NCBI GenBank assembly: GCA_023653785.1
Contig: JAMKCH010035235.1
Coordinates: 43,929 to 107,928, forward strand
Origin: Ophioderma brevispina
Taxonomy: Eukaryota > Echinodermata > Ophiuroidea > Amphilepidida > Ophiodermatidae
Direction: 5' to 3'
DNA length: 64,000 nucleotides
In this document: positions 1,821 through 34,000 of the stretch, piece after piece
Numbering within the stretch: position 1 is the stretch's first letter
Layout of the letters: each line of letters begins with the position of its first letter
Position numbers and translations under genes: made by a program
Notes under the pieces: model-generated
Told to the model about the DNA's origin: nothing
Seen by the model: only the letters and a program-made list of their open reading frames with translations
The model's database searches: none

Positions 1821-1874
1821 CTCTACAGTCATTGGTAATGCATCTTGCACTGGAAGTTTGGGTTCCTTTGCCTT
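1821..1874 (-). CDS. DCTN1: DCTN1 KEPK cassette exon: [18 protein letters not shown]
   Basis: The exon is 54 nt, phase 0, with acceptor ATGTAG and donor GTATTG. It is the third member of the tandem KEPK exon family and the last supported exon before the window edge. The gene continues to the left. Confidence 0.8.
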
Positions 1875-4800
1875 CTACATTCAACAGCGGATTTGCCAAA
1901 AAAGAAATGCAATCATTAAAGGTACTTGGAACGAAATACAGCAAAATCTGGCCTTGTTAAATTCAGAGTTAAAAAGTTAGATGAATCAATCTTGGACAAA
2001 ATTTCTCTTCTACTTATAAATAAGTAATATAGCTTTCCCACTACCATATTGTCTATAATAAATGCATTATTGCTTCTACCATCAAAACCACAAGTTTGTT
2101 AATATTATATACTGTGCTAATATTGATGGTTAACCGTTAAACCGGCATTTTTTGTTTATATCTTGGGAATGAAATGGATTTGAGGGCTCAAATTTCAGGA
2201 CGACAATGAGAAAAATATGGCCTTTCATCTAATATTAAAATCGATACTGCTTCCAGGTAAATGGGGGGGGGGAGGTCCCAAAGACGATCAGAACACGCAC
2301 CTTTAATCACCTGTGATATTTCAGCAAATTGTTGTTCTAAATTTGAAATGAACTGTGTTGTTTAAATTGAGTTATTTCTACTACAATTATCCTGGTTAAC
2401 TACATGAATGTAAATTGATATATTGTGGCCTGGTAAAAAAAGTTGATGTTTTAGCAATAGCAAGATGCAATATTTCACAACATTTCTTATGTATTTTTAT
2501 GTAGAAAAACAAAGTTCCTCTCCAAATGCCAAAATTTCCTGTGATGGATATTCCCAATTTCTCCTTTCTTTCAGGCCTGCACAAAACCTCTCATGTATAT
2601 TTTTAAATCAAGTACATAAATAAATTTGATTTTTTTAATACTGTACTGACCCTAGTATAGTCCCACCTGTTTTTAACCTGAAATTAGCTTGAATTTAGGG
2701 GGTGGGATTATAATGGGATCTCCATCCTAACGTGAAACACATGCTCATCAACATTCAGCCTTTCAGAACTAAACTTATTCCAGATATATTAGTGTGTCAA
2801 ATGAGGTGTGTGATCAACAAAGACATGTAAATGAACTGAAGTATGAACCTAATTAATTTTGTAAAGAAAATCACAAGAAGATGCTACCCAAACAGTAATG
2901 ATTTTAACAAATATTGCATGTAATCTATTGCCTTCCAGCAAAAAAACTTATGGTGGGATTATAATAAGATTTTCCACTATTCTTCAAATTCTTTCAAAAC
3001 TTGGGTGGGATCTGGGATTATAATCGAGCATGGGACTATACTCGGGTCAGTACAGTAATAAAATCCAATTCATCAATAGCAGCCTTTTTAAATATAACAT
3101 ATCATAATACTAAATGCTCAGTACCTGAGTAGGAGTTGGTGGTTGTTCTTGTTTGCTATGTTTAGGCTCCTTCTTCTATAAGCAAAAGTGGATTGGCCAA
3201 AATGGAATACATTTAAAACCAAAACATTAATCATTCATTAGGAGTGGAGGTGATTGTAGTTACGTGATAAACATTATGTAGTAGGGTTATAAACGAGAAT
3301 CCCATTCTAGAAGTTTGGGGAAGAAGGCTTCAAGATGGGTTCTATAGTTTTAAGGGTGCTGAATCTGAATTGGGGTCCAACCTAGGGGAAATTGGGGAAC
3401 TTTTAAAATAAGGGGGTAAAAATTGTACAGGGGTAAAATTTGAATCAAGTCTAATTGTTGTTTAAAATGTACACCAATGTATTGGTCTCATTATAAGGAG
3501 TAAAAAAAGGTATAGTTTGTCTAGGTTGGGACCTTTAGTTAAACAGATACAGCCCTATTAAGGTTCAAGGTCATTCTGGGGCAAAAAAATTCCAATGCTC
3601 AGATTTTGTTGAAACCAGTGTCAAATTATTGCCCTGGTCATACTGAAGCAGAAAATGAATTTCAATTCTTTGGGTGACACCTCTGTATACAATTAGAGGT
3701 CAAGTTTTGGTGACCCCTTAGACCATGTAGACCCTTGTTACATTTTGCTCACTAATTACGAAACCAAATGCCAAACATTGTAAAATAAGGCAAGACAAAC
3801 AATTTGACACCGGTTTCAACAAAATCGGATCACTGGGTGACGTTTACCCCCAGCATGACCTTGAACCTTAATTGGGCTGTATCTGTTTAACTAAAGGTCA
3901 GAACCTAGACAAACTATACCTTTTTTTAATCCTTACAATGAGGACAAATTTAAATTGGGTACAGTTTAAACAAATTTGACTTGATTTCAAATTTACCCCT
4001 GTACAAAATTTTACCCCCTTATTTTACAAAGTTCCCCACATTTTCCAGAGGTTGGACCCAAAAATTCTGATTCAGCACCCTTAAAACTATAGAAACACAT
4101 CTTCAAACCTTCTTCCCCAAACTTCTAGAATGGGATTCTCGTTTATGACCCTACTAATGGCAAAGTTCCACTTCTATAAACTGGCACAGCTGTTGACAGT
4201 CTGAACATGAACTTTACCAATTTCCAATTCACAAAATACATTTTAACGATGTGAATTTGATTCCACTGCTATGCATGTTGCTGATTAACTTTCAAACAGG
4301 TGGATGAGTTTCTTGCAATGGAGATGATCATATCAGCTAGCATAAGTTAATCTATCACTTTCACCATAATGCACTGGGAGTTTTGCTGGTTTCTGACAAC
4401 CTTGGATCCTTGCAAAAGAGAGAACCTCTTGAGGACCTCTCAAGTTACAATTTCAACCATAACTTTTGAATGGAAGCTCTAATTGTTATCAAACAAAAAG
4501 CAATAGAGATTTTCCTCAATTTCAATTTGTAGTTTTATTTTTAGCCTTCTGAAGGGTAAATACACCTGAAATTCCTTAAAACTGATGCAACTGCTGGGAT
4601 AGCCTATGCAATGTACCTCAAGATACTAAGAGCGTGTCTGCTTATGAATATCAAAAGGTGCCTTGGTCTTTATGACATACTTATTGCAAATTAACTAAGA
4701 GAACATCCAAATCTTAAACTTAACCACACCTTCAACAATTTATGCACTTTCTTTATGCACTTGCTTGAAGGAAAGAAAATGCCTACAAATACAGAACCCT

Positions 4801-7800
4801 TTCCATGATAAATTAACAAAGCAAACAATTTGTTTATATACCTCGATAGCAATTTGTGTTGCCTCCTGTTTTGGATGTTTTGGTTCCTTTACCTTCTACA
4901 AGGTAACAGTGGATACGCACCAATGAAAAGATAACAAGCAACAAAATTTGGGGTATTGTAAACTTCAGTGTACTGCTAGACATTTGTTGAAAAGAGGATG
5001 GTAAAAACAAAGCAGGGTAATACATGGTTATTTTACAAACTTACAAAACAATCCGTATAATGTATTTAAGGCAAGGCATCCATTCAAATCCTAAATATAT
5101 CCAACTTCCAAATTTTCAATCAGGGATTTGTTTTGAGGATATCTCAATATATTGGGGATATGAACAGACACCTTGGCTAGATTTAACCAAACTTCTTTAC
5201 AAATTAAGCCTCCAAGACCTGTACACATATATATGGATTAAAAAGAAATGTAGGAATATATTGAACATTATGCACTTGAATACAAGATAGGGAAAAACAA
5301 TTAGTAGAGTAGTAAAGATTACTTTCTCAGTTCTCTGGTGATACATCATATGTTGTTATTCACTCTTTGCACGTTTACACCATTTGCGGGGAGAGCCTCG
5401 GACTGGCAGCAATATGAATGGGAACACTTATGCAATAGTTCGATTCTTTCTAAACAAAACCAATGGCCTTGCAAGAGGTGAATGCAATGTTATATAACAC
5501 ACTCATCTAATCTAGTATCAGTTTGAGGCTCTAACTGCAAATGGCGAACTGTGCAAAGGACAAATACCGCTCTTTCAAAGCAAAAACAAATAAATTAAAA
5601 AAAAAAACACGATCACGAATGTGAAAAAAATACTAACTGAAATTGCAACTCTGTAATAAACAAGTAGAAATAAATAAGGAACCCAGTAAACAAAGAATAA
5701 CTACCAATAAATATGCTTCAATTGATATATATAAATAGCAAAGCCCCTGTCAAGAAGACTATCTAAAGCTACTAACTGTATCAGTACAGCTGGAAAGAGA
5801 TCTACTAGAATCAGTTCCGTAGCATTGTTGAAGCCATTCTAAATCCAGTAATAACCAGAATTCACTAATAAGCATCTAGAAATTTGCCCATCAACTACAA
5901 GAATCTAAATAGGTTTTAAAAAGCACAACATTGTATATTCCACATTTGTAAGGTAAAGAAAAACATGATCCTCTTAACAGAACCAGGAAATAACCAAAGT
6001 TCATGGAAACTTTCTGTTCATTTCCAAAACAAAATATAAGAATCTACAACAGGGTTCCCACTTTGGTGTTTTAACGAGTCCACTGGACCCCATAATTTCC
6101 AAATGTTCAGAATTACCTGGTCAAGTGGAATATTTTGTGGTCCCGAGGCCAGCCTTCCAAATGTTTGTATGTAATACTACTAATCAGGACTTATCAGTTT
6201 CCAAATACATGGTAAGATTTCCTGATTTCTATTGTGTCTTTGGTGAAACTTTTGAGGTATCACATTTCCTTATTTTAATGTTAACAAGTTGGTTTTCTGT
6301 CAGACAATACATTTAGTATAAATAGCAATTGCAATATTATGAATTTGGTTTTCCCACAATAAGCACTATCTTGAATGTTGCATTTAGCAGAAATATCATG
6401 TCTTTAAATTTTGCTTTTGAGGTTTGGAAACATATTTGGAGGTTTGAAAAAAAATCCTTTAGAGGCTTAGAATTATGGGGGTCCAAGTGGACCTCATTTT
6501 GTTACTCAATCTGAATTTATCGTGTCCAGTGAAAATTCTGCCTGTCATTTGACACCAAAATCCTACTAAGCGGGAACCCTGATCTACAAGAATTATGTGA
6601 AAGTAAGCTCAAAGATATGTTCAACAGTAAGTCCAGTAGAAATCAATAGCATTTCATTAAGCTTAAAAAATGATAAGATGAAAATACTGTATAAGTGGAA
6701 AATTGAACGCTACATATTTTCACGCTTTAGTGCACTTCTAAGCCAGTGGCAAAATTAAGAAATCAAAAAATTTATTTTATGGCAAGTCTATGTAGGAAAG
6801 CTGAAAAAAGGCCAAATTAAAAAACAAGGCGTTCTCGAACCACCAAGTGGCGACTGGTTGCGCGATCACTTGCTTTATGATGAGTTGGCAAATGATAATT
6901 AGAAAGAGAAACAAAGCCCTGGAGAGAGGAGTTTATACAAAATGACCAAGTTTGGTATAAAAATTTGGATTGTGAGTTCCATATTATTGGTCGAGTTATG
7001 AGTTGCAAAAAATATTTGGCGAGACTTGTAAGCCATATTTTAAAAAATCAGACGGACCAATTAATATTGGGTGAAAATCATCCAATTTTATCATTATTAT
7101 GTTTTGGATCCAAATATTGCCCAACTTGGATCCATACAAACCTAATAATGAAGTAAATCGGCATAGGTGTTTAAGCCAGCAGAAGCATTAAAAAAAGTGC
7201 AAACCGAAATGTATGAAAAGTACATCGCGGTAGTTGGATGCTAGTGTCGTCTGCCATCGCGGTTTGTGAAGGGGGTCAAAGGGGACATGAGAGTCACCAA
7301 GGTGACATGAGGTAACCAAGGTCACATGGGGTCACATGGGGCACTGAGGGTCCATGGGTCACAAGGTCACTAAGGTACATGAGGTCACTAAGGGCACATG
7401 AGGTCACACCACCCCTCCCCGATGCACTCTTCCCCTCCCGACAACACCCCCCAACTACCCCACACCCCAGACAACCACCCCAACTCACCCCCCACTCCCC
7501 CCCTTCGCATCCCATCCCGACCGCTCCCCGTGCACCGATTTGTGAATGGGCCCAAAGGTGCATGAGGTCACCAAGGTCCATGGGGTCACACAAATGTCAC
7601 CAAGGTCACCAAAGTCACCTAATGCACATGAGGTTACCCACCCTCCCCGCCCCCCCCACCCCAACTCCACCCAGAACGCCACCACCCGACCACCTCCCGA
7701 CGAAGCACCCACCACCCACCCCCTCCCCGACGCAACCCCACCCTGCGCACTAACACCTCACCCTTCCCCCTCCCCAACACCCACCACTGCCTCCTCCCCA

Positions 7801-10206
7801 ACGACAGAACATCAAACACCCCACCCTTCGGTCCCTCCCCAACACCCCAACCACCCGGTGCCCTTCCCCAACCACCGCCACCCTGCCGCCCTCACCCCCC
7901 CCCCCCCCCTTCCCCTCCATATGATTCACACACAAGATGTATGGTTTTGTAGTTTTTCATGTAGCTAAGGAATTTTGCATATCCGAGTCCACTTTAGCGA
8001 GACAGCATTATGCAATTAAATAGCTCATGCATACATAAGCATGCATGTATCAGGACTTTCAAATGGCAAAGAAGATGCGACCATAATGGGTTTTCGGCGA
8101 GTGAAGGATTTGGCATATCCGATGTACCGTTGACAAAATATAGCAATTACGCTGATTGTTGCAATTAATGAGCTCATTTGGATATGTAATTTGCCCGAAA
8201 AATATGCCCAACATCTCTTTAACCCACTTACTCCACCAAGTTAAATTCATTATAGGCCTTACGGAAACTACAGGTAACGCACACAAGCCTTGCGGGGAAA
8301 AAGGGTTGAACAGCCAAAATAGCTAATTAATATTCATGAATAGGCAAATAACGAGCCAATAGCTACACATAATAATTTGGCACCTCACTCTATCACCCTA
8401 CCGAGTATGAAGTAAATTGGGATTAGCGTGTTTTTGTTTTTTAGCCAAGCAGAGCATGTTCAAAAAGGTTAACCGAAATGTCTGAAAAATATGCAAATAG
8501 CTAATAAACTTCATGATGCAAATAATGAGGCCAAAAGCTACACATAATCTTGCGGCACCTCACTCATCATCCTATCAAGTTTGAAGTAAATCGGGGATAG
8601 CGTTTAACCTGCCAGAGCATTTTAAAAAGGTTAACTGAGTCATACGGAGCGACGGACATACGGACACACAGAAATTGGCACTAGATGTGCCTCCATGAAC
8701 ATTCGTTCAGGTGACACAACAAGTGAAAATCACTAAAAAGCGAACGCGTGAAAATTATCTTTTACAGTATTGCTTGTCTCAAAGTGCCAAAACAAGACAC
8801 CAAATTTCCAACATAATTAATTATAGAACAAAAATTCAGAGTTTGTGGATTATATCTTGGTGGAAATAACAAAGTATTTTTTTTTCCACACATTACCAAA
8901 TAAAATTGAAAATTTAAGACTTTTCAAGCAATTATTATTGATGTTGAATTGTCTCAACAAAATAAATCAAATTTTTCTTTTTTTACAATCTGGTTTGGGA
9001 AAATTTTGATCAAAATGCTAATTCTTCATCAGCTAGTAAACTGCCAGAACAATTACCAATCAAGGAATAGTCAAGTCAAAACAAATATTACCATTCTACA
9101 TGCAAATTGAAAAGTACAACCCTATCAAATACCTCAACTCAATGGGAATGGATGATGTCAACTTCTTCACTTTAGATATTCCCTACTGGCGTGTTGATCT
9201 ATAGCAAATTTACAGCATAAACCAAGACAAAAAATTGAATACCTTTTAAATGTGGAATCTTTAAAAGATGCAAATATGTAGGAAATCTGTTTAAAGAGGA
9301 GCAAGGGTATGTGTGTGTATGTGTGTGTGTGTGTTGTGGTATGCTTGTCCCGGTGGTGTAACTCATATGACCATGTGTACGCAGATCATTCCCTTTTTTG
9401 CGAAAAAGGGTGTATTTTGAAAGAGGTCGCGAAAATGAATGTTCGCAATTTTTAAAAAAAAGGGTCCTTTTGTCATCGATGATGTACTCGATATTTTTGA
9501 AAAAGGGTTTTTTTCAATTTTGTGAACACGAAAATGTGAAATTCTAGAAATCTTACCAATTTATCGCTTAATTTAATCCAGTATTACATTTTGTCATGTT
9601 TTTTGCCCCAAAATTCGCAACTTTCCAGGGGACAACTCCGCTGGAAAGTTCATGAAGTTCAGGTCGGATCCCCGTTTGTTTACATTTCACGTAATCGCGT
9701 AAACAGGGGCTTCCCCCGGTAGAGGACAATGATTCCATGGGTCTTTTTATCAAGCGCTAATCAAATGCAGACGGTCTGTGGAACCATGACAAGCAGGGTA
9801 TCATGAATTCATCTGGTGCTGACACAAAGGCAAGGGGCCCCGTTCGTCTCCAGTGCAAGAACTGCCGCGAATATTGCCGACTTTCCTCAGGAGTATAATA
9901 ATATAAATAATATTTATTTGAAGTACTTGGGGGGAGTCGAGGAACAACATTTATAAAAAAGAAATGGTACAATTACATACAACAGGCAAGTAATTCAGGA
10001 TGAGCGAATGGGCTTTGAAAAGCCAAAGACACAGGGTGCTCACTCATCCTATAAAAAAAAGGTGATGGCACAAGCGACAGCAAAATTACAGGAACATTTC
10101 CACAGAGTACATACATTACCAAAGAAGTTCAAAGAACAAATACATGATGTATATAAAATAAATAATGATAAATAAGCCCACAGTCGCCCCATATCAGATG
10201 CAAAAA

Positions 10207-10247
<41 letters not shown>

Positions 10248-13200
10248 ATAAATGAAACTGGGTAATAAAAGGGTAAAAAAGAGCCAATTAGGCAATGATT
10301 TCCATAAAAAAAGATTTACATCTGATTTGAAAGTAGCAAGTTTTGAGCCTCTTGAATAAATAAGGAACAACCATTCACAAAGCTGGAAGAGCACACCAAC
10401 AAAGAATTAAAGAAAGAGAAGTTCTGGCATTTACATGCAAAAGTCTGGAAACCGTTTTTAATTCTACTTCTTTGCCACAAGTGAACTAAAAGTTTCAGGT
10501 TTTAAAAAATCATTCAAAAGTTGTAACCAAAAGACCAACTTTGGAATTGAAAAGGCATCCTCAAGTTTCATCAACTCTGCAGTTCGGTAAGCCTTTCTGT
10601 ATAGTTCGGTCTACTCCCATCACCACTGGGAAATTGCTATAAGAAACACTGGTGATTTTCCTCTGAACTCTCTCCCAATCTATCAATATTAAAAATTTCT
10701 TTGAAAAGGGGCCCCGACACACGGACACAGTATACAACAGAGGTAAATAAGAGATTGTAGAGATTGAGCAGGCAGCAGAAGACATATTTTTGGTGCATTC
10801 TAATGATACACCCAGAAAGCTTAGAAATTTTGTCAGCTACCCCCAATGACAACATGAGAACAAAAGAGAGATCCTTACTAAAAGTTACACCAAGCAGTTT
10901 GAAGTGATTAAACTTCATAAAGTTTCACAGTACCATTAAATAAGAGCTACAGAAATTTGGAGACACAGACCTGGTCATGTGCATGACAGAGCATGTGGAA
11001 AAGATTTAAAGGAAGTTTATTGATGATTGACCACTGAACGATTGAAAAGATATTTTGAATGTCCTGCTGCAGAATGTGGTGATCATGTTAACTATTGATA
11101 GGTCGAACAATTGAATGAGAGTCTGCAAATTGAGAGTGGAGGAAGAAAACAACATGTTTGATGTCATTACAAAGAGCAGAAATAGTAAAGGACCAAGGAC
11201 AGGCAGAACCTGAGGCACACCAGAAGTCACGGTGCACCATTCAGGAACACACACCTTGAAAAAACACGCTTTGTCTACGCATAAACAGAAAATTTTGGAA
11301 TCCCAATGCAGAAGTGAACCTCTAAAACCCAAAAAAAAGAATGGAGCTTACTGAGCAAGAGGTTATGATCAACTTATCAAAAGACTGTGAACTGAAATCC
11401 AAAAAACACTCCATCAACAAGCTTACATTTTCGATCATCCAAGGACTTACTGATAAGATGGAAAAATTTTGCAAGAATTGTCCACCAAGTTCTGCACTCG
11501 AAAACAAATTGGTTGCAGAGAGCATATATTCTCATATATAATTCATCATACGCAGGAAATTAACTTTTCAAAAACCTACCAAGCACACTTGTTAAGAAAA
11601 ATGTGTCTGTAACTGCCAATATCTTTCCTTTAGGCCTTACCAGGATCCTTATAAAATAGGAACTACATTAGCATAGTTCCAAGGCAGGGACTTTACCATG
11701 TGAACAAAAACTTAAAAAGGTCACACAAAACAGGAGCAAGCTCATTCACACAACAAACCTTCAAGAAGACCGGAAGTAAGTCATCAGGACCGGGAGATTT
11801 AGAAGTATCCAGATATTTCACAGCACCCTCAATCACTTCATTCACAGTAAGGGATCAAGGAAAAAGGGGCCTGCACCATGACGACGGTTGCTGAATCGGC
11901 CCAAGGATTGCTAAGTCAAGAGGATCGTACATATCATCAAATTTGCTGCTTAGAGAAAATAATTGTTAAAAGCAGCAGCAATAGTCATAGGATCATTGAC
12001 AACTTCATCATCGATAGTAAAAGAAAAAATGATCAGAGCTTCCTTGTTGATGCTACATAAGACCAGAACTTTTGGGATTTGCTCTTGAAATTTCAGAAAT
12101 GGTATATGCTGTAACTACTGTTGACTTTTCCCGAATTCATTGCTTTTCAACGTATTACTGCAGTCCTTAAACTGCTGCTGAGCAACAGAAGATTTAACAA
12201 CTTAGCCCTCTATACAAACATCTTTTTCTTTGTACAAAAGCTTCCTAATATCCCTATTCATCCAAGGTAAGTTGATGTTTTCCTAACAACTTTATTTGGA
12301 ACAGCTAAATGACTTATGAGATGTTTTAATTGTAAGTGCCTTGACTTTCTCTGATGTAACAATTCGCTGTATCAGAACGTCATGTTAATAAGGAGCTTAA
12401 TGTAGTGCACAATGCAAGCAAGGAATTGTTCACACAAGTAGACCACAGGTTATTGGGAAAGATAACTTTGATATTTGAAATTGGGACAATTCATGTACTT
12501 TTGTTATTTGAATTCAGTGTACTTTTCTGTTATTTGTTTTCCTATAAATATTAGGCCTAAAGATGGTATTAAAACAGTTAAAAAGGACAAACAGATTTCA
12601 TCTTTGAAAAGAAAACATGTTTTTGTCATGTTCTGATATTTAAAAAAGGGATTGATTTTGTAAAAGTGTACTTGAATATGAAACAAGGGTTGTTTTTAAA
12701 GGTTAATTTGTACCCGTTTCATGTAAAAAAAGGTGGTCAACAGTGCTGAAGAAGTACTGAAACCACAAGAAAAAGGGGGTGGGGTATTTTTTTGATTGGG
12801 GAACGATCATTCGTTACGCCTTTGAATAGAAAGTGACACCAAGATGCTTGTATAATAAAGACTTCGAGGACCAACTCACAAACAGAAATTCTTTCTAACA
12901 TAGACTTTGAAAGCAATTATTTCGTCCTCAGAAGTAAACAATGTGCTTTATTTTGTGTTTTGCTTTGCAACCAAGGACCCAGTCCTTTCGATGTCCTCAA
13001 AGTACAAAAGATATGTTTTGTGTGTGTGGGGGGGGGCGAATTGTGTGTATAAGAAGTTAACTATTTTGTATGGTCAGATGGAGGCTAGAATTAGGCTACA
13101 ATTTAGCCAAAATTGTGCAACAAGACTGCTCTTTTTGCCCAGATTATTGCCGTATTTTTTAAAGAGATATATAGGAAATAATGTCCCAACTTGGGTTGGG

Positions 13201-16200
13201 AGGCTGGAAGATTCCCTCTATCCAACCATCCCTCCCTATCCCCACCAATCAATTGGTTCTTGTGTTGGTGGCAAAAACAAAATTTCAGGATTCTTCAACA
13301 TTGTCAGGGGGGAGAGGGGGGGGCATTTTGAAGAAAGGCCAATAAAAGTGTTCCAACACTTTTGGCAGAGATTGTATAGTACATTAGAAATAGGATTTCA
13401 TGTTTAACTTAATGCCATGCCATTTCAATTAGATAAATGAATTGAAATTAATGAAATGTACAAAATATAGGTACAAATAAGATGTTCCATCTGAGTATAA
13501 AATTACACTTCCTCCCTGCCTTACTTTAGGGAATGGTCACTTTTAATCAGCATAGGCCTTACTTTCAATTGTGTTTTAAGCTACATTCATGGGGTTACAA
13601 ACGGCATTGTTGCAAGATGCCATTGTGCTTTCTGCGGTATAAAGTGTCTTATTTGTGTTAAATTATATTATTTCATAATTGTCAAAGATTCAAACAACAA
13701 ATAAATTTTTAAAGCTATGGTAACTGAAAAAAAGAAGGATTTAACATGGTCAATACGTTTCATATAGGGTTACGCGCTTTATTTGATACATAGGGGTTAA
13801 ATTTTAAATGAAAATAACCGAATTCCGAAAAGGATTGATTTTGAACCGCGAACGTCCCGCTTGCAAGTCGAGATCTTTGCCTCTAAGTCTAGCCCAAATC
13901 ACTCCTACATACTGATCATTCCTTCAAACCTAAAATATGTTTAAATCAATGATCGACGACGGGTAACCAAATCCTACACACGTAAATCAAGATGATGCCA
14001 CGATCACCATATTAACAATAGATACGACAGAGTCATGATCTTTTTCATATGTTTAGCCGTGGTAGCGTTGGATTTTTATTAAAGACATTTTTCAGAGAGC
14101 TAATTTATTCTTGAAAATAGAATTTTTACCGTGGATAAATCGATGTCATGGACAAGGTGAAAATATCGAATCGGTTGATAAAAGATCACTTCACGTGTAA
14201 CAATGGGTTGTTTACATTTGTTTTCAGTAAAACTTATAGAGCCATACCAATGTATCTTGGCGTGTTTATATACACCTTTATCCTCGTCATCACATCTCGT
14301 TGTCGTCGTCGTCATCATCATCATGTATCATCATCATCATATATTTAAAGAGAGCGAATTGGCTTAGAGCAAAGATCTCTCCTTATAAAGCGGTAGTTTC
14401 GGCGGTTTCGAAGCAAGTCCTGCATTTGGACTTCGGTTATTTTCATTGCCAAATGTAAGCTACCTATATATCATATAAAGCACTGAACCCTATATGTAAC
14501 GTAATGTAATGTTAAAACTTTTCATTTTTTCCCCCCCCTAGTTTTACGTGTCTTCTAAATTGTCTTTATTGTAAACATTTTACAACTAAATAGTAAGTTG
14601 TTAAATACAAATATACACTTTTGTACCGTGGAAAGCACACTGTCGTCGTCATCGTCGTCCTCGTCATCTCATCTCTCCCCTGAATTCCACTACTGTTTTA
14701 ATTTATTCCTATATTCATTATACAATGCAGAAGGTGGCACCAAGAATGTTTTGGGTTTTCTTTGCTTATATGTGTAACATTTGTAATATATTGCGCCTGT
14801 ACCATCTTGGGATTAATTGATTATGTTTTACTATTTATTTTTCATTTAAGTAAAATGTTTATGCAGTCAGAATGCCCGATTTCTAGAATAACTTAGGGAC
14901 GACACACTAAAACGCTAGATAAATGCAAAAAAAGTTGTTCCAGTAGGTCCCGCACATTTTTTAAAAAGTCCATTAACCACACTTTGTTTTTATTGTATGA
15001 CCTGATAAAATTTTGATTTTTTTGGACAAAAAATTCCTCAGGACCGAAAATTTCAATTTTGGACAAAGTGATCCCACATTGATATTTTTGTTTTATAAAC
15101 TAATAATTTTACAGTGTGGATTGCAATTGTTTTAAGTTACTATTTGGTGTGATTTGAGGTATTTCGAAGGAAATTCCTTTTATTACACTTACTGTGCTCA
15201 AGGGATCCAAGAATCTCGATCAAACATTTGGCAGGTATTTATAAAATGCCTGCCTTTGTGTCAAAGAGTGTTAAAAAAAAAACAAATCATTTTGCATTTA
15301 AGGCTTTTGGAACTTTTTTTTTTGCCTAATTTCTCCTAATGAGAATCCCTTACAAAAATATTATACAGATTTATCATCAATAGCAAGCATCCCCATGCAA
15401 GCAATGTTGGAGTGGTTTCTGTGGATGCTAAAAAACATGCAAACAATACGCCTATTTTGAGCATACTTTAGTCACTGAGCCCCTGGATTTCCAGCTGAAT
15501 TCATATTATGCATATTAATGTCAAGTTGTCTAAACCAGCCCCCTGAAGATTCTAGAAGAGATTGCAAGAATTGTTCAAGTGTCTGGCCCAACCACCAAAG
15601 GAATTCTACACACTACTCTCAGCCCGCCATGTTTGTGGGTTTCTACATGAGCATGCCTTCAAAGAACTCCCAATATATAGTATGGTTACCTCAACTGGCA
15701 TGACATGGCTGGGGGCATGTCCCTCTTGCTTGTTTGTAACATCCTCCTTTGTCTTTTGATTACAAAATACAATGATATATTAGATGTATACAAAGAATTT
15801 TAACTTGAACATAGAGAACAGTCTCTTATGCTGAAGTATGCATAATTTCCCTTCTATAGAATGATACATTGTGGGGCCCGGTGAGGTGGGGAAAAGTGTA
15901 TCAGTTTCCTTGAAGCAATTGGTCTACAGAACCAAGAATATAAATTATCTACAGTTCCAATGATTTTATTAGGCCTAAATATTGTTTGGTTGTAACCAAC
16001 CTTCACCCTCACACACACACACAAACACATGCATGCACACACACAAATGTTTCTTTCCACAAAAACAAGAATTATGCAGTGCCTAATTATGATGGCCCCA
16101 CAACTGTGGTTTTTATTCATTTTATTGAGAATAAGCAAATGAGCTCATTAATATTCATAACCTGTCCAAAATGTATACAGCTTATGACCTTGTCATGTTC

Positions 16201-19200
16201 TATCATGTCATCTTAGAAGTTCAATGACTAATCGGTTTAGTCTGTAGAGTGGATTAGTGAATTTTCTTCAAAATATGCAAATGAGCTGGCACCCATTTAT
16301 ATACCTGGGTAGCGAGGAGTAATTGAAGTAAAGTGCCGTACCTACTATTGCACAACATGTTAGCCAGAGCGGAACTCAAACTCACAATCATTGGTCTGAA
16401 GGTTGGGTGCCTTATCCACTGGACCACAAGGTATTTTATGTGAATTGCAAGCTGATCACACATCTGTCTCAAGATTTAAAAAAAGAAAGAAAAGCATACA
16501 CGCACACATGCATACACACACAAACACACACACACAAAAACACTAACAATTATGACTCAATGATACTCCTTAAAGCCCGAGTCGTGATTTGGGATCTTTA
16601 GTTACCTGGTCGTGTGACTCATTTGTGGAAAAAATGCCTTGACACATGATACTTTTTGCTTGTGAGGAAAAGTTACAAATTTTCCATAATTACACCAACA
16701 ACCATATTTTTACCAGCCTGTTACAACATCCAAACAATTTTTAGGCCTAAGAGAAAAATACTCTTCTATGGGTAAGATGAGAGAGAAATGAAAGTCTAAG
16801 ATTGAAGAGGTTGGATAAAGTTATTCCCTTCTACCTTTTCTACCTTTCTTTCCACTGCTCTACCTATCAAAAGATCAAAATTAAATAGGCATGCTAGTTT
16901 TAAAGATACCTGCACAACATTGTCTTTCGGTTCTTGTATAGGACTTGTAGGTTCTGCAGGTTTTCGGTGAAATGTTTCGTCTGAATGACAAGATGCCACA
17001 TTAGAAGACGTTAGTCAATTTTGAAACTCCGTGTAAATGAAAGTCTAAAGCAAGACCGTACAAGAAAAATTTCTAAATTTAGATTTTTTCTTTAGACAAT
17101 ACCAATTATTTAAAGAACTTACAGGGGCAGGAGGAGATTTTTTAGATAACTAGTTTTCATTCAATTTGCACTTGATGGTACCAAGAACCTTTTTGAAGGT
17201 TTATGGGACAAACAAGTAAAAAAGAAAACCAAAAACTATGTTTTTGAACTTGCCTGCTATAATAATTGTTCCCATACAAAAAGCATGCTTGATTTTTGTA
17301 ATGCCACGAATAAAATTATAAATTATCTCCTCAATGATCTTATTAGGCCTAAAAACAAAATTGTTTTGCTTGGCGTACATAGAAAAAAATAGGGTAGGTA
17401 GAGTTCGGGAGTTTTTTTTTTTTTTTTATGTTTCACATACCAGAACCCAAAAATATATGCAACATACTAAACAAAGCCACTCTTCACTTTCTGTAACACT
17501 CCTTGTATATGTTAATTGAATGTCCTGCAAATCTGTTAGAGTCCCGAAGTATGACGTCATTAAATTCCTTGTTTTTGCATTCAGCGTTTTCATGACCATA
17601 TATCAGTAGAACATGATGGAAAACCTTTTTTTGCACACACAACAAATAAAAACTATCTAGGGTCGGCGGTTAAAATAGGGTCGGTCGGTTACGCCAATCA
17701 AACAATTTTTTTTCGGCCTTAATAAAAAGACGTGCGTATTTGGGTGATTGCACTTCAGCGTGTGATTAATATTTGTAAGCCTTCCAAATATGCAACAACC
17801 CCGGGTTCGAAAAACATTTGGGCGCTTCTTTCTAGAAAAATGTCCTTGGTCGCTTGAATATCGCCTGCCTGGGACAAGGCAACATGTTTGATATTTAACA
17901 ATCTTCGTAGAACTATCGAGCTAACAAGTGTCACAGAAAACTGGTATTTTTTAACAGGGTCAACCCAAGACACCAAACAATGATAAGTCACAAATTATAA
18001 GTCAAATAACATGGGAAATGAACACACAAACATGACCACACCATTTTGTTTCGCCTTTGTTTTGCTCAATATTTGTTATCGTGTGGGGTGGGTTAGGGTT
18101 AGGGGAAAGATCAGAGTTATTGATGAAGTCCATAATTTAAGCAATCAGACGCGACATGATATATCGTATGTACCAGAGAAGAAGGTGACCGATGTAGACA
18201 CAACAATGACGACACATCCCCACATCCAAAAACCTTAGGGGCATAACACTAACATTTACCTCAATGGGTGCTGTGGGCTCTTTTCATTGCCTCATTTTAT
18301 CTTTGCCAGGCCCATGTTCTTCACAGAGATTAAAAAGAAAACACGTCCCATTAAGACATTCACAAATCTGCATTCATTAAGGACAATAGAAATTGACCAA
18401 AACCTCAGTATTTCAAAGATCATCAGGAAAGCTAAGCACCACCATAAACTATCACTATCAGCAAAAGAAATGTGAGAGCCTTGAACAGTATAAGAACATG
18501 AGAAGTCGTCATATTGTTCTGAAATAGAACTGTTAAATACCAGGCTTATTCAAAAGCAGTTCACAACCAAATTTAGGCAAGTTTTAGCTGAATATTGCCT
18601 TGCTCTCTCTCCTTCACATTCAAAGGCACTTAATTCAGCAGCTCAAAATTTAGGTTTGCTATTTCCCCATTAGATTTTCTACATAAGACATGCACATCTG
18701 TATGAAATGTGAATTGTTCCTATGTATGATAAAAAAAAATCACTTTTCAAACAAGAATGTTATGCAGTAAATAGTTTCACAGATGCTTTGAAGGCACTAC
18801 CAGTAATCTAACAAAAAAATATTTGAAATTTGGGGGAGTAGCTTAGAAGTGAAGGATAAGTCTGTATAATTCTAATTTTTTTTCAAATGAAAATTTGACA
18901 AAATCAAATACAGCAGTGTTGAAATATATGAAACTCAATTTAATTGCATGTTGCAGTTAAAGGTGGGCAACCCTATCATGTCTAATTTTTCATATGAATA
19001 TTTCTCCATCACATTAAAGTATATCACTAAAAACATCAAATTTTAAGTTGAATAATTTGGTCCAGCTGTTTATAGCAGAAGTAAAAATGTGTACTGAATT
19101 AGTCCATATGACAGTGTGTGTGTGTGTGTGTGTGAGGGTGTGTGTGTGTGTGTGTGATGGTGTGTGTGTGTGTGTGTGAATTAATGTGGTTGACCACATA

Positions 19201-22200
19201 TGGAGATATTTTTATTCCTAACTTCAAAAAACATTTTCTGGGCCTTAAATTTTACTGGGGTGATGAGAAAAATATAAACTTTCTATTGATACCAAAATCT
19301 CATTTTTGATGGAGTAAAGTCGAGGGCCAGATTGTCGATTGGGTCACCTATCTTTAAGTGTGTATGGGGGCCATTTTTCGGTCACGTCTGTGACCAAAAA
19401 CCGGTGTTTTACTTTCAACCCAATGCTGTTTTGTCAACGTAACAAATCTGTAATTCCTTTTTACATTATTAATAACCTTGAGTCTAAGCCTAACAAAATA
19501 ACCAATCCACCAAAACTGGAAACATTATTTCGTCAGGGGGGGAATAAAGGTTATTTTTGTGACCATCAGTAGGTCACACATGTGACCAAACTTTGGGGGG
19601 CAACCATGACAAAATAACCAATCTACCAAAAGTGGAAACATTATTTTTGGTTAGGTTTGGACTGAAGGTTATTAATAATGTAAAAAGTAATAACAGATTG
19701 GTTATGTTGACAAAACAGCATTGGGCTGAAAGTAAAAAATCGCCGTTTTTTGGTCACACACGTGACCGAAGAATGGCCCATGGATAGTAATGACTGAAAT
19801 ATCTGATTTTTATCCTCATAGGTTGCTTTCGGACGAATTACTCATAGGGTACATGATATTGTTACAGACATGCAAAAATCTGATTTGTTTTTATTTTCTG
19901 ATTTAGCAAATGCACTGATAGTACCTTTAATCTTGTGGCTAGTGTTTTCTTACATGAGCTCTGAGGACTTGCCTTCTATACCTCTTTTAAACAAATAACT
20001 TTTTTAATAAACTAAACATCAAGAAACATTATTTGCCTACCTAAAACAGTACTATTATAATTTTAAAATAGAGACATTTTACCTCAACAGGCTTTGCTGG
20101 TTCATGATCTGCTGGTTGTTTTGATTTCTTTGCAGTACCACTGCTCTAATTTTCAGAGTATCAAATGAACATTGACAAAACATTACATGGGAAAAGAACT
20201 CAGGAAAGCATGAAAAATCAATTTTCTAATTTTCTAGAACTGAATTACAAGGAACAGCATAATAAACCCCAAGTAGAAGATATTAAAAAATACTGAGAGA
20301 GCATTAAAAACTGACAGACAAGATAAAAATCTGCTGATATCTACCTAAATACAAAGAAAAGCTAAGGCAACCTCCAGAATTCTGCCCCAACTCCCCAAGT
20401 TTTACAGCATTCTTATCTACAAAGTGTTTTTCTTATATTTTCTACAATGCAGCTAAGAAATAGAGTCAACTGATTGATTCTAAAGTAGAGCAAGGTATAT
20501 GTACTACAACCAATACATATCTAATATACTAAGAAATGCATAGCCATTATCTCTTGCAACTCATCAAGAGCAACTATATTTTTTAAAGATTCCCAAGCCA
20601 CTTTCACAACTTTAATACAATAAGCAAAACCAGTGAAAGAAAAATAAGTTTCTCAGGTTTATGGAGAATGAGGGAGAAAAATTGACTGTTTTCAGATATT
20701 AAATGGGATAGATCAGCACTGAAAAAATATTCAAACTTGTTTTAATATTTATCTTTGCTAGAGTTCCCTTTTGACACTCTAGATTCAACCTCCATTATTC
20801 TTTGCTTCTATGAGATTTTGGCCCAAAATTATGCTCCAGGACCATAAGTAATTTGGAGAAATATTCCAAGTCAAATTTTGATGCACATGCTCCAGGACCC
20901 CATATGGGGCTGGAATAGTATTTAACTTAGAATACGTCTCCACTGCCCCAGGAGCATATTTGCCATATGGTCCTGGACCATTTGTGTATTTAAATATGCT
21001 CCAGGATCATATACAGCATATTCAAATATGCTCCTGGAGCATATTTGTTTATTTATGCTCCAGGACCATATGGTCCTGGACCATATTTGACTTAGAATAT
21101 TTTTCCAGATTATTTCTGCTCCAAGACCATTTAGTCCTGGAGCATAATTTTGGGCCAAAATCTCATAGAAGCTTATTCTTCATACATAACAAGTCAAATC
21201 AAGATGGTTACTAGTATACAAACTCCTACCCATAGTTTCCTGTGACCCCTGAAAACACATTTTCACATAACCCTATTTTCCCTTAACCCCATTTTCCCAT
21301 AACCCTACAAACAGTCTAAAAAAAAAAAAAAAAAAAACAATGCAGCTAAGAAATAGAGTCAACTGATTGATTCTAAAGTAGAGCAAGGTATATGTACTAC
21401 CACCAATACATATCTAATATACTAAGAAATGCATAGCCATTATCTCTTGCAACTCATCAAGAGCAACTATATTTTTTAAAGATTCCCAAGCCACTTTCAC
21501 AACTTTAATACAATAAGCAAAACCAGTGAAAGAAAAATAAGTTTCTCAGGTTTATGGAGAATGAGGGAGAAAAATTGACTGTTTTCAGATATTAAATGGG
21601 ATAGATCAGCACTGAAAAAATATTCAAACTTGTTTTAATATTTATCTTTGCTAGAGTTCCCTTTTGACACTCTAGATTCAACCTCATTATTCTTTGCTTC
21701 TATGAGATTTTGGCCCAAAATTATGCTCCAGGACCATAAGTAATTTGGAGAAATATTCCAAGTCAAATTTTGATGCACATGCTCCAGGACCCCATATGGT
21801 CCCTGAAATAGTATTATAACTTAGAATACGTCTCCACTGCCCCAGGAGCATATTTGCCATATGGTCCTGGACCATTTGTGTATTTAAATATGCTCCAGGA
21901 TCATATACAGCATATTCAAATATGCTCCTGGAGCATATTTGTTTATTTATGCTCCAGGACCATATGGTCCTGGACCATATTTGACTTAGAATATTTTTCC
22001 AGATTATTTCTGCTCCAAGACCATTTAGTCCTGGAGCATAATTTTGGGCCAAAATCTCATAGAAGCTTATTCTTCATACATAACAAGTCAAATCAAGATG
22101 GTTACTAGTATACAAACTCCTACCCATAGTTTCCTGTGACCCCTGAAAACACATTTTCACATAACCCTATTTTCCCTTAACCCCATTTTCCCATAACCCT

Positions 22201-23422
22201 ACAAACAGTCTAAATTATGTCAAAATAATATCAAAGACAAATTAAAAATATAGCAGTTTGTCATCCCAGCTCACTTCCTTTTTCCTCCCACCTCAATCAC
22301 TCTTAATTAAAAAACAAAGGCAAAATTTCCATATTAGCACACATTTGCTCTTATATTGATTGTAATTATTCTCTCCACATGTATTCATCTCCAGAAGCAC
22401 ATCAAAGATGAAGGGAGTCTATGTATCCAAATATTTTAATTATAAAATCTGCCTTCTTAGATCACCATTTTGCAACCTTTTTGTAATAGGTTCCAAGAAA
22501 GTTTTTTTTTACTCGGTCTAATTTACAGGCCCAAACAGGTTACCCTGCCCAAACAGGGGTCATCGTCCCTTTAACTACATTGACGTGATTGCTCGAGACA
22601 TCAAGCAGGAGCCATCTGACATCCCCAACTTAATGATGTACAGGGACATTTGGCACTACATGATGAACAGCATCTCAGCTGCGGCTGCGACTGCTAGATC
22701 GATAGATAGAATTTACAGGCATTTGTTTTGTGTGCAGTATAATACTAAACACACCAAATACAGCAAAAAGGATCTCTCATTCAATTAAACAATCAACAGC
22801 GATACCACTTTGCCATGTAAGATATACCCTTTACCAATGCAAGGGTCTCAAAAACCCACACCATTTTAATAACACCATGCACCCTAAAAAATCAACATGC
22901 AAAAGATTTCATTTGGTTGCCACAACAACCAGACTTTCATCAGCAATTACCTCCTCAGCATCAGCCTTCGATTCCTGTTTATGACTGATACCATTCTTGG
23001 GTTTCTTGGGAGTAGTAACCTTTTGCTAATCAGCACAGAAAGACAATAAGGATATTAAGCATATTTATGGGCTGCATGCTTTCGTAATCATGGATGGAGC
23101 TTCTGCCACTAACTGAGGTCTACCACCTTTATTACAGCATCTCTGATTGGCCTTAAAATGGTAAACATTGACCTCATTAACCAATCAAAATAGACTTTCT
23201 ATATAACTCTCTGCACCTATAACAGAACTGCCAACATTTACATTTAGCCATCAGGGAGGTTTCACACAGAAATCAAGGTGGTTTCCAATTTTACATGTAA
23301 CCTAATGGGTGCATATCTTCCACACTAACAACAAATTATGAATTAAGATTCCTTTTGGCACAAAACAAATCTGACTTGTGATTAAAGGCTTAATTACATA
23401 GTTCCTATGCTATATTTGTTTG

Positions 23423-25013: not shown

Positions 25014-28000
25014 TATATATATGTACAATATATTGTAATGGATTACCAACTCTGCATGTAATTATTTGGCCTATTGAATATTGCTACATATTAATTGAAA
25101 GATGCAGAGAGATTAGTGGAAAATTTAAAACATTTCTCAATTTGAAATGTTTGCTTGATACTTTCTCTTACCTCTTTACATGTATGAACACAATCACTTT
25201 CAATAAATACACAAAAGATCAAAGAGTCCCCACTTACCTATTTTTGTAAGATTTCTCAATGATAACAAGTGTTCTGTAGAAAGTTATGGAATATGTGCAT
25301 TTTGCCATGATCTTTCATTACTTCAGGCATAACATTTCGTACTTCCAAATTTAACTTCCCAACCTCTCAATGCATGCATACAAAATCATGTGTTAAGTCA
25401 CCAAAAATATCATCATGCATATTCAAGTTTGTTATCCATTAATAAACATTCTCCCTAATAAGGGTTTAAGAGCACATTCCCTTCTGGCCACATACCTGTT
25501 AAACTCTGATACAAAATGTCTTATTTTTTTTATTTTTTTTATTTTTTTTCACCTTATATAATGAGTAAATGTACATGTGGGTTCTACTGGACCAGTTATA
25601 ATACCTAGTTTGCAATTTTCATATATGATTTTCATTTACAAAATAGCGATCGCAATTAAAACATTCATATGCCACATTGTATCAAAAACATGTTAATTTT
25701 CAAAATAAGGATTTCTGGTAAGAAGTTACTCCATTTGTTTTGAAAACCAATTCTTGTTAGCCCTTTTTTAACACTAATATGTTAATAAGCACCCATCCAA
25801 ATGTCTTGGAAAATAAAGTACCCGAGGCCCTTTATTAGAGAGAATATGATACATGAAATCAATTTCAAACCAATAATGACTCGGTAACACCAAAACATGC
25901 AAATTCAATATATGAACATCCCAACACAGACAGGTTATTAAAATACATATTGAAACATACCAAATGATAGATGCTACTACTGTAAAACAATTCATTTCTG
26001 CCTGAAGAAAATATTTGCCTGGTGAAATGTTTTGAATATTTGGTAAAGAAACCCTCATTTTTTAGGCAAATTTTGCCTAAGGTAAAGGTAAAGGGGACGG
26101 ACCTGTATACACAGGAACGGAGTGCCCATCTCTCTTTCGAAGTGATTGGGCCAGACTCCACCATATAGTGTTGCTGTAGGGGGCTCGCTACACCTCCTCT
26201 ACAGCGAGTCTGTTTGCCTACTCCTTGCCAAACAAAGAGCACTGTAATTTACAGCAGGAAATTTTCACATTTAATACTATACTCATGAAATTTGTGGAAA
26301 GTTCTCGCTGTGAATTTTTGTTTTACAGTAGTTTTTTTTCCCCACATGGGTAACTATCTAGATCTACTACAGACACTCACTCTAGGCACATCAGACGACC
26401 GACGAGGTGTAAAGGTAGGGATTCTTCTAGTGAAAAGATCCTGAAGAAAGATGAGTTGGGTAAGTACAGGTAAAAGACATACCAAGCAAAACATAGCAAT
26501 AAAAGTGACATGCACAAGAAAACAAGGCAGGCAGATTAACATGCACATACTGATTAATCAACTTTTACCAGATTAATGAACTATTGACCAATGTATTGAC
26601 CCAAACTAGAGAAATCTTGTGTAAAGCTGATTGAAATTGTAGTGTTCGTAGCTAACAAAACCATACCATTTTTGGGGGGGAGAGAAAATACTTCACAGAA
26701 AATCCTTTTGGGTCTAATATGTGCCAATTGATTCCTAACCTATGTTCCTGGTGTTGGTATAAGTACCATAATTACCATTCTTATGTTTGCTCATTTATGG
26801 TTTCAAGCTGAGTAAAATGTAAAAATATTCACATGATAAATTTTGTCATTACCTTTTGACAAATCACAACTTGTTTTAAAATTCCGGACCCAGATTTTTT
26901 GTTATACACGTAAATGTTTATTGCACCAAACCGAAAAATCCGATTAAAAACTCAAACTTTGGAAGTGAGCAAATTTGGTGACCATCTTTAGTTCCAGTTG
27001 ACTATTTTTAATTAATATACCCAGAAATATACCATTTAAAAATCTGAAAGTCGGCCTTTAAATGTGATTTCTCTAGTTTTCCCAAGTCCTGCCGATACAT
27101 TTCCAGCATTACAAAACATTACTGATTTATATGTATTGAGCAATTGATAAACTGAAGAGTATCTTGTACAAAAAAGCACAGAGTGGGGAACATTCAATTT
27201 CTTGAAGGTTCAAATCATTTACTGTTCATTATTTGTTCTTATGTTTCTTATAAATGTATGTCATTTGTAATTTAACAGGCCAACTTTAAACAATCCTTGA
27301 TTTATTTGTTATTTCACTTGAAAGTGATTTATTTTTGGGACAGGAATCAGGTCTGAATGAAGTTGCTTTTTTGCCCTTAATTTTTTAAACAAAATAATAT
27401 TTTTACAGCTTTAAACAGTTATGGCACTTGCATTGCAGCTTCAAACTAAATACTAAAAAAAAACACCAATCAAAAATATTTTCACAGCCTTTAAATTATT
27501 TGCAATTCAAAATTTAACCACAAAAAAACATAACAAATTTGTAAACATTTTCTGCAATACAGTACAACCCATTACAGATTTGTACTGGTCTATTTTAGTA
27601 CTACACAAAATTACATATGAAATAGCAAAACATGTTTGCCACTGTAGTTCATGTTAATTTGAACAAACTGCACAGTCCAACTGAGTATAATTTATGTTAA
27701 TGATTTGCATGTGACGAGGTTTATACAATGGTAACATATTGTAAAATATTGTAAAAAAAAAAAAAAAAAAAAAAGGGGGGAGAGAAAATACTTCACAGAA
27801 AATCCTTTTGGGTCTAATATGTGCCAATTGATTCCTAACCTATGTTCCTGGTGTTGGTATAAGTACCATAATTACCATTCTTATGTTTGCTCATTTATGG
27901 TTTCAAGCTGAGTAAAATGTAAAAATATTCACATGATAAATTTTGTCATTACCTTTTGACAAATCACAACTTTGTTTTAAAATTCCGGACCCAGATTTTT

Positions 28001-31000: not shown

Positions 31001-34000
31001 CAGAACAATGTGATCAGTCATGCATGAAACTTCTATTAGCATATTGTTAGTTACATGCAGCAAGAAAAACAATGACTTGTTCATCAGATCAATCAATCAA
31101 TCAATCTTTATTTCCATAAAAAAACAATACATCAAATAACATCAAACACACAAAACATATGGAGGAGTAGGCTGGAAAGCCATCAGAAGGAAACTGAGCT
31201 CAATTCTGGTGACAGGGTCAATTTTTAAAGTCAATTTTGATTGACTTTGCACATTGACATGCCTTAACTCATCAGACGGAATAACAAATTTGTATACATA
31301 GTTGTTATTTATTGCCTTTTAGGTAACTGAAAAGTACTTAAACATGGAACATGAAATTAATTTTCTCATGACAATGAGCTTTTCACACTAGAGCACAAAA
31401 ACGTAACATGTTTTTAAAATTACATCCCCTGAAGTTTTTGATCAAGATGCTAAATACTAAGTAGCCCAAATGCCCAGGGAAACGACGTATGCTACGGGCG
31501 CCGCCATATTACATATTTTTTTGGAGATCCCTCTTCTGTAATTGCAACACTGTGTAATTATGCTGAATTTGTACAAGAACTTCATAAACAGAGGATTTCC
31601 ATGTTTGTGTAAAAGTCAGAAATTATTAAAAGCAGCAGTACTGAAATTTAAAGCTTTATTTTTACTGATGGCAGACAATTTTCGTGAAAATTTGGCTTCA
31701 GTAATTAAACTAATACTGAAAAATAAGTTGTTTTTGCTTAAGTGTAAACATGTAGTGAGTGAGTGGTCTTTCCGTCCATGTGTACACGTCACAGCACTAG
31801 TGTTAACTGAACATCGGAAACAACCACATTCACAGTAAATTACAATCATCGTTATTATTTCTTTATGGTTGAATAAAAATGTTTCACACTGAAATTCATG
31901 TATTTAGAAATTTACATATTGTTTTAAAATAGATCAAAGAAAAATACAAATAAAAAAGATGGCAAGTCATTATTTTTCCATGCAATACAGAACACAGGAC
32001 TCAAACCACATGCAATTATAACATAGCACATGCACTACATTGTATGAACCAGGCACATGCAGGGGACTTGGTAACATGGGGCCTATAGGGCTAGTTAGAA
32101 CTCACTTTCTCGGATCCAGCGTGATCGCCAGACCGTTTAGCTGAACCCTGCTGCTGAGATTTGCGACCTGCTGGTGTCTATGAAAATTTCACCATGATCA
32201 TGTCATATTTTAGGTTGTAAAAGTTAATTGTTTTATCAAAAAGACAAGTTGTAACTGAAAATTTATAAACTTTACGAAATCCTCAAGAAAAGAAAAACAC
32301 TTTACTATAACGGGTTCAGCTGTGCTGCCAAGTTATAACAGTGTAAAATAGTGTTTCAGAACTGAAAACATTATTCCTTTCTTTTTAATTGTGAATTTCT
32401 TGAACTTTTGAAAGTGCTTCTTTATATTGTGTTTGTTTGATTTTTTTCTTTACTTAAAGCAATATTAGCACATTTTTTTGAAGAGCGCCCCCAATTTTTC
32501 AAAAAATTTGAAATTTTTACACGGTTGCATTGGTAACTGGCTAGTAAACATGTGAATGGTTAAGCTCAAAAATGTCTGTGTCTCACAAACGAAGGAATTT
32601 TGTAATTAGAATAATTATTATCGGGATCCTGATAATAATTCAACGGCTGCTGGAAACGGCCTTCCAATGTGAAATAGCCAGGAAATAGTGCCATGTACGT
32701 GTCTACGCTCATCCATTAGTTGTTTTATTGGTTCAGGCAAATCAAGTTAGAGGTTATTTTCTCGAGGTGGCACTATTTCATCATGGACGGACATAAACGT
32801 AGCACTTCCAGCTCTGCCATTAAGTCCAATCTGGGATCCAATTCTAATTACAAAATTGCTTAATTTATGATAAATACACATTTTTTAGCATTCTCGTTCG
32901 CAGGTATAGTTTCCTAGACAATCACCAACGTAACTGTACCAAAATATCAAATTTTGAAAATTGGGGGCGCTCTTCAAAAAATATGCCATTATTGCTTTAA
33001 CGAAATGAAATACAAAGTACATAGAGAAGGCTAAATTTTCTACTTTGCTATTTAAGTAGGACTTTTTAGAAAAACATTCTTTGAAAACAAATGCAGGCTA
33101 AGAAAATGACAGAAATTGCTGTACATATCAAACGAAATGTTCAGATAATGTTAATGAAAAAGTTGAGAATCATACCAAATTTCTGAAAGAGCTTTTATAT
33201 TTGATTGTAATTGAAGCAAGGACACAAAAACTACTGCCTACCATACGATGGTACGACGGTCCAGTTCTGATCAAACAATATTAATAATTAACAAGCAATG
33301 ATAGACACACAACGACAATATAGACTTCTAGATTCTTACTTATCTAATATTGGTGGATATTTTTGCATGGTTTTATTTGTGTGAATTTTCACGATAAAAA
33401 TAACAACAATAACAGAACACAGAGGACTTTTGTCATCAATCCTGAAAATGAATCTATAAAAGTGAAAATTACTATTAAATTATGAACAGTTGGTCAGAGT
33501 TAATTTTCATGGGTTCATACCTGAAGTCCTTGCACCTTATCCCTGGGCACTACCTGCCTATCTATCGGTATCTAAGCACTATTTTGATTGGTCACTTGGA
33601 AGGTAATATCATGTAATGAGCAAATCAGAGAAGTAAGAATGTTGGTAAGGTTTACACATACATATATAAAAGCACTATTTTGATTGGTTACTCACAGAGC
33701 TATCTCATGTTGTGTCCTGTAATGAGCCAATCAGACAGATATGTAAGAACAGTGGTGTTCTAATGACTCGTAAGGAATGCTTGCTTACCTTCTCCGATGT
33801 TGATGTAACAAATTGCATTGTCTTTAGGCAGATGCAGAACCTCCCATAAATATATATTCCCACATAATATATATTCATTTCGATCACCCTGTATGACGAC
33901 ACCCCCCCAAGTGACGTCATACCCACAATCCTCTTCCTCTTTTCGTAAAAAAAAAAAAAAAAAAAAAAGTTGAGAATCATACCAAATTTCTGAAAGAGCT

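Follow-up and report, generated by a model that had tools for sequence, protein, structure and literature searches.

Does the p150Glued gene of the ophiuroid Ophioderma brevispina carry an expanded series of small, in-frame exons in the linker behind its CAP-Gly domain, and if so, where did these exons come from and what would their splicing change? We addressed this question in a stretch of 64,000 nucleotides, referred to here as the window. The minus strand of the window encodes the 5′ part of DCTN1 (p150Glued). We located the CAP-Gly exons by tblastn, using a human p150 sequence as the query. The coding part of the first one runs from the start codon through 39577..39674 (minus strand) and is followed by a gtaaga donor. 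The second lies at 38157..38274 (minus strand), was recovered by tblastn and translation, and ends in phase 0. Their joined translation matches the Pfam family CAP_GLY (E 8.5e-23). When ranked against the sequences of the PDB, eleven dynactin-1 entries came out on top (E 2.2e-28, for 2hl3, to 1.1e-25), and other CAP-Gly proteins followed from 2.6e-15. The N-terminal CAP-Gly domain is thus nearer to that of dynactin-1 than to those of other CAP-Gly proteins, and the original prediction that this is the p150Glued linker was borne out.

Among the 120 proteins listed, DCTN1 of the starfish Acanthaster planci ranks first and a CAP-Gly protein from an annelid second. Most of the nearest full-length proteins are DCTN1 of echinoderms (Acanthaster, Lytechinus, Apostichopus, Patiria and Asterias). 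In the same list, the 11 echinoderm proteins share 56–61 of the 72 CAP-Gly residues encoded in the window, and the next best protein shares 53, which points to an echinoderm whose own group has no close representative in the list. Coiled coil 1, the dynein-binding region and the C-terminal Arp1-binding part would lie below window position 1.

A second, near-identical copy of the first CAP-Gly exon was found by tblastn at 38933..39023 (minus strand). It lies inside a tandem duplication of ~0.64 kb (99.4% identity over 354 nt) and is possibly an assembly artefact. Within 38933–39674, this copy starts without an ATG, and an exon upstream of it would have to supply one base. If real, it could yield a CAP-Gly form with a different start.

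Nine predicted phase-0 exons in the linker

We predicted nine minus-strand exons of the AG…GT type, numbered E4–E12, in the interval that runs from the CAP-Gly exons down to position 1821. Their lengths are 90, 72, 60, 75, 63, 63, 54, 51 and 54 nt, corresponding to units of 17–30 residues, and every one of them is open and keeps the phase. The series spans 34 kb, with introns of 1.25–10.8 kb. Phase 0 and a length that is a multiple of three hold for 9/9, in a scan that sought only such exons. By length and phase, any of them could be skipped without breaking the frame, as had been proposed.

The exons and their scan scores are, from the CAP-Gly side, E4 (35962..36051, score 31.2), E5 (32106..32177, 17.8), E6 (26381..26440, 9.7, with an acceptor score of 7.4), E7 (22951..23025, 22.5), E8 (20083..20145, 14.6), E9 (15690..15752, 8.9) and the KEPK exons E10 (4842..4895, 16.4), E11 (3125..3175, 20.3) and E12 (1821..1874, 6.7). 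The score combines two components, approximate, typed-in splice-site matrices and a composition term for a linker rich in K, P, S, T and E. Both the opposite strand and 40 first-order Markov simulations served as controls. Because the composition was chosen after the finding had been seen and the matrices are approximate, the comparison with the opposite strand carries the most weight. Over the whole window, 13 candidates on the minus strand scored at least 6, nine of them the linker exons, compared with five on the plus strand, the best at 13.0. Within positions 1–36500 of the minus strand, the thresholds 8, 10, 12, 15 and 18 were reached or exceeded by 9, 6, 6, 5 and 3 candidates, respectively. 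The corresponding means in the simulations were 0.38, 0.20, 0.10, 0 and 0, and the maxima were 2, 1, 1, 0 and 0. Eight of the nine candidates with scores of at least 8 are linker exons (the remaining one is 33821–33789). Five linker exons score at least 15, a value that none of the 40 simulated sequences reached. Strict splice-site thresholds left almost nothing, and one such run returned 0 candidates on either strand.

Several of the exons have poor splice sites. Acceptor scores are low at 20145 (E8, −6.5), 15752 (E9, −5.2), 1874 (E12, −4.2) and 32177 (E5, −2.3), and donors are weak at 1821 (E12, −0.2) and 4842 (E10, 0.3). These values count against our preferred explanation, set out below.

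The original prediction counted at least ten exons of 51–90 nt. Nine are supported; a tenth is not, and three further candidates on the minus strand are doubtful. One, at 16910..16980, has a length (71 nt) that is not divisible by three. Another, at 18260..18318, ends in KEPTAPIE by translation and contains an in-frame TGA. Each of these two is a doubtful or decayed exon. The third is a possible micro-exon of 27 nt (17123..17149; LSKKSPPAP) whose donor reads gtaagt and whose acceptor looks weak; it is absent from the scan candidates. These three exon-like pieces (17149–17123, 16980–16910 and 18318–18260) look as if linker exons had been gained and lost. The series had also been expected to continue at the window edge. 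Two filters found no further phase-0 exon-like piece in positions 1820–1, though the gene itself must continue past that edge.

Relatives of the exons within the gene and in other animals

We compared the exons with each other by alignment against shuffled sequences. E10, E11 and E12 are homologous, with z values of 12.2 (E10–E11), 16.5 (E10–E12) and 9.7 (E11–E12), so that exons of one gene share ancestry at the sequence level. These are the three exons that had been described as clear duplicates sharing KxKEPKHxKQE. Their kinship stands, and the full motif is not common to all of them: it fits the exon at 4842, fits that at 3125 minus one residue and does not fit that at 1821. E8 shows weak homology (z 5.3 with E12). 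For E4–E7 and E9 we established no homology to other exons, the best other pairs reaching z values of 3.1 and 3.6. An nhmmer model was built from E10, E11 and E12, whose own scores (E 2e-27 to 8e-32) are therefore high by construction. Besides these three, the model recovered in the window only E8 (E 0.0051) and a marginal match overlapping the 71-nt piece (16954–16906, E 1.1). E8 is probably a distant relative of the KEPK exons, to which the model links it weakly. These sequence comparisons show exon duplication for E10–E12 and make it likely for E8, and such support does not extend to E7 and E9.

The homologous unit is ~115 nt long and consists of ~50 nt of upstream intron, the exon and a few bases past the donor. 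When the upstream 60 nt were aligned alone, 1/100 shuffles reached the score of E10–E11 and 0/100 that of E11–E12; the pair E10–E12 did no better than shuffles (10/100). Intron stretches of 500 nt further upstream or downstream could not be aligned (z −1.3 to 0.4). Differences among E10–E12 are not concentrated at third codon positions (4/5/6, 5/5/6 and 7/7/7 over the three positions), and this even distribution gives no sign of protein-level selection between the copies. Purifying selection at the protein level was thus not detected, in comparisons of 51–54 nt each that have weak power.

The introns contain other repeated sequence. Five tandem duplication sets, 93–99% identical, lie at 20444–22214, 26675–29979, 33157–34285, 36546–37189 and 38505–39670, and each has, at a junction or next to one, a poly-A run of 20–23 nt on the plus strand. 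The window contains eight A/T runs of at least 14 nt, and six of these are there, all of them poly-A on the same strand. The duplications are either artefacts of the assembly or products of a recurrent mechanism in which poly-A takes part. We considered assembly duplication as the source of the KEPK exons and rejected it, since these exons are 65–80% identical compared with 93–99% for the tandem copies in the introns. A minus-strand open reading frame (11006–11347) without a Pfam match lies in the intron of 10.8 kb that separates E9 from E10, and one stretch of it resembles the reverse transcriptase of non-LTR retrotransposons. Pfam searches of 7 of the 18 open reading frames in the window assigned no family.

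To place the exons among known linkers, we compared each with 158 DCTN1 linkers drawn from 165 fetched proteins, using 40 shuffled peptides per exon. E4 resembles the linkers of echinoderms (0/40 shuffles reached its score). E5 (13/40) and E6 (7/40) are not significant individually; both occur in order within one Acanthaster alignment (score 108, calculated without a shuffle control). As we read the sequences, the position of E5 corresponds to a segment of A. planci X2 that is missing in Patiria miniata X2. E6 resembles the sea star segment SVRRIAKYSPARRST, and the E6-like block is missing in Asterias X3. E7–E12 remained within chance against the same 158 linkers, with 25, 17, 35, 37, 20 and 25 of 40 shuffles reaching their scores, and KEPK occurs in 0/158. 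The expected expansion is upheld relative to the other DCTN1 linkers compared here. Two broader searches returned no relative of the distal exons. One, with residues 66–266, gave 625 candidates, none at E ≤ 10, by a method that needs shared exact words and missed even similarity of the E4 level. The other, for shorter proteins, gave 45 hits, all CAP-Gly proteins and none with more than 55% query coverage. The protein database groups sequences at 90% identity, which may hide isoforms of other species that contain such exons.

DCTN1 of sea stars, sea urchins and sea cucumbers is thus alike in its CAP-Gly domain (56–61 of 72 residues identical), in a similar E4 and in segments at the places of E5 and E6 that vary between isoforms or species. 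It differs in that none of its 11 representatives has a counterpart of E7–E12 beyond chance.

Optional linker exons and competing readings

Optional exons are known in the same part of this gene elsewhere. Human DCTN1 exons 5, 6b and 7 are alternatively spliced and encode 7, 6 and 7 residues (PMC3583065, in the portion available). According to the available portions of two other papers, a human fragment without exons 5–7 forms no stable complex with tubulin (PMC3712912), and a human isoform without the K-rich domain spends a shorter time on microtubules (PMC5574551). The comparison with vertebrates that had been drawn for the Ophioderma gene holds for the gene, the place behind CAP-Gly and pieces whose optional use would alter the number of lysines and arginines, and it is loose in other respects. 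As far as these excerpts describe the human exons, they are three strongly basic pieces of 6–7 residues, unlike the nine putatively optional units of 17–30 residues predicted here, the last five of them nearly neutral. In Caenorhabditis elegans, exons 4 and 5 of dnc-1 are optional and give four linker isoforms, which alter the level of dynactin at microtubule tips as seen by RT-PCR and genome editing (PMC5552355, in part). The worm gene is a p150 gene outside vertebrates with optional linker exons. It differs in having two of them, and the available text of that paper contains no mention of repeated KEPK-type copies.

Amphioxus is the closest match in scale. Among the database gene models listed, Branchiostoma lanceolatum has 17 distinct linkers in 18 isoforms, and B. 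floridae x belcheri has 12 in 40; the rows for B. floridae x japonicum, B. belcheri and B. floridae were left out of this comparison. These predicted linkers differ by whole blocks, and we counted six in-frame optional segments in many combinations. Unlike the Ophioderma units, the segments have 7–30 residues, and the linkers examined contain no KEPK. The set of predicted Branchiostoma DCTN1 isoforms is unusually large, with numbers up to X50. In our reading, linker blocks also differ between X2 and X6 of Lytechinus variegatus and between X1 and X2 of Diadema setosum. A survey from 2012 stated, in the portion available, that alternatively spliced DCTN1 isoforms occur in vertebrates only and were not identified in other species (PMC3583065), a statement with which the C. 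elegans isoforms and the predictions for Branchiostoma and sea urchins conflict. Our literature search, within the text that its sources made available, returned no description of linker exons in echinoderm or amphioxus DCTN1. Outside this gene family, a parallel is the PEVK region of titin, a disordered segment with short charged phase-0 exons that were multiplied within one gene. Titin is a different protein, and the likeness is an analogy only.

We consider it probable that the gene has at least nine phase-0 linker exons, of which E4–E6 belong to the linker shared by echinoderms and E7–E12 are additions of the lineage, and that some of them are spliced optionally. Judged by their position and order, E4–E6 would be the counterpart of the linker in other echinoderms, with individual similarity for E4 only. 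E7–E12 would have been added in the lineage, partly by exon duplication. Some of the linker exons may be included or skipped independently, by analogy with vertebrates, C. elegans and the amphioxus and sea urchin models. Combinatorial splicing is plausible because predicted isoforms of other deuterostome DCTN1 genes combine their linker segments in this way.

It is unlikely, by our estimate, that the distal exons are real and always included, forming a longer linker whose uniform phase stems from the duplication of one phase-0 exon. Duplication alone would account for the symmetry of phase 0 seen in nine of nine exons. However, the weak splice sites of E9, E10 and E12 suit optional exons, and optional DCTN1 linkers exist in vertebrates and C. 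elegans, and the isoforms predicted for amphioxus and sea urchins differ in the same place.

Still less probable is that E7–E12, or the weaker ones among them, are decaying or never-used intronic copies and that the working linker consists of E4–E6 and exons beyond the window. This reading would fit the weak splice sites, the absence of third-position bias in E10–E12, and the stop and the frame break in the pieces near 18.3 kb and 16.9 kb, respectively. It would also fit sea star representatives with an E6-like segment, in which, as we read them, the segment before the coiled coil comes directly after. Set against these points, all nine exons are open and in phase, E7, E10 and E11 have good exon scores (22.5, 16.4 and 20.3), and the exon with its 3′ splice region can still be aligned although the remaining introns have diverged.

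It is very improbable that the KEPK segments stem from a dispersed repeat and resemble an exon by chance: the unit is indeed short and the window has many other repeated stretches, but only four matches in 64 kb pass the inclusion threshold, all on the sense strand of the intron series and bordered by intact AG and GT, and the best plus-strand match has an E value of 7.2.

Splicing signals, charge and reach

Returning to optional use of the nine exons, we looked for seven splice-factor motifs on two sides of them. GCATG, the Rbfox core motif, is enriched downstream (9 versus 2.4, p 0.002, one of 14 tests), and the other 13 of the 14 tests gave no enrichment at p < 0.05. Four GCATG within 250 nt downstream of E5, at 32060–31979, are the strongest part of the enrichment. 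The enrichment of GCATG is a hint of Rbfox-type control of the linker exons.

The net charges of E4–E12 are +2, +3, +3, +2, +1, −2, +1, +2 and 0. E4–E7 hold +10 of the +12 net charge, and E8–E12 contribute +2 over 95 residues. E5 and E6 have pI values of 10.3 and 11.8, and the arginine-rich patch is E6 and not a KEPK exon. It is the proximal exons that hold the basic character, which is known to favour tubulin binding. An explanation by charge only was dropped because E8–E12 are nearly neutral, and the proposed charge module did not hold for the KEPK part of the linker. With so little net charge, E8–E12 would tune length more than charge.

Each splicing choice would add 17–30 residues, which are expected to be disordered. 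Choices among E5–E7 would mainly alter the positive charge that faces the acidic tubulin tails, and those among E8–E12 the reach from CAP-Gly to the coiled coil. We accordingly expect splicing of E5–E7 to change affinity and splicing of E8–E12 to change reach.

The arrangement is most likely a lineage expansion of the known alternative-linker type, larger than that of vertebrates or the worm. We advance only tentatively, and with more doubt than belief, the wider proposal that the p150Glued linker of this echinoderm lineage consists of nine or more independently spliced spacers, partly repeated duplications of a KEPK exon, that set the reach and grip of dynactin. If this were true, the gene could encode up to 512 in-frame linkers, with net charges from −2 to +14 and a range in length of almost 200 residues. 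With nine phase-0 linker exons in the Ophioderma gene compared with six variable blocks in the amphioxus models, our comparison suggests that p150Glued has had optional linker exons since long ago and that these have been remodelled repeatedly. The gene may offer a natural series in which linker length or linker charge can be weighed as the control of dynactin on microtubules.
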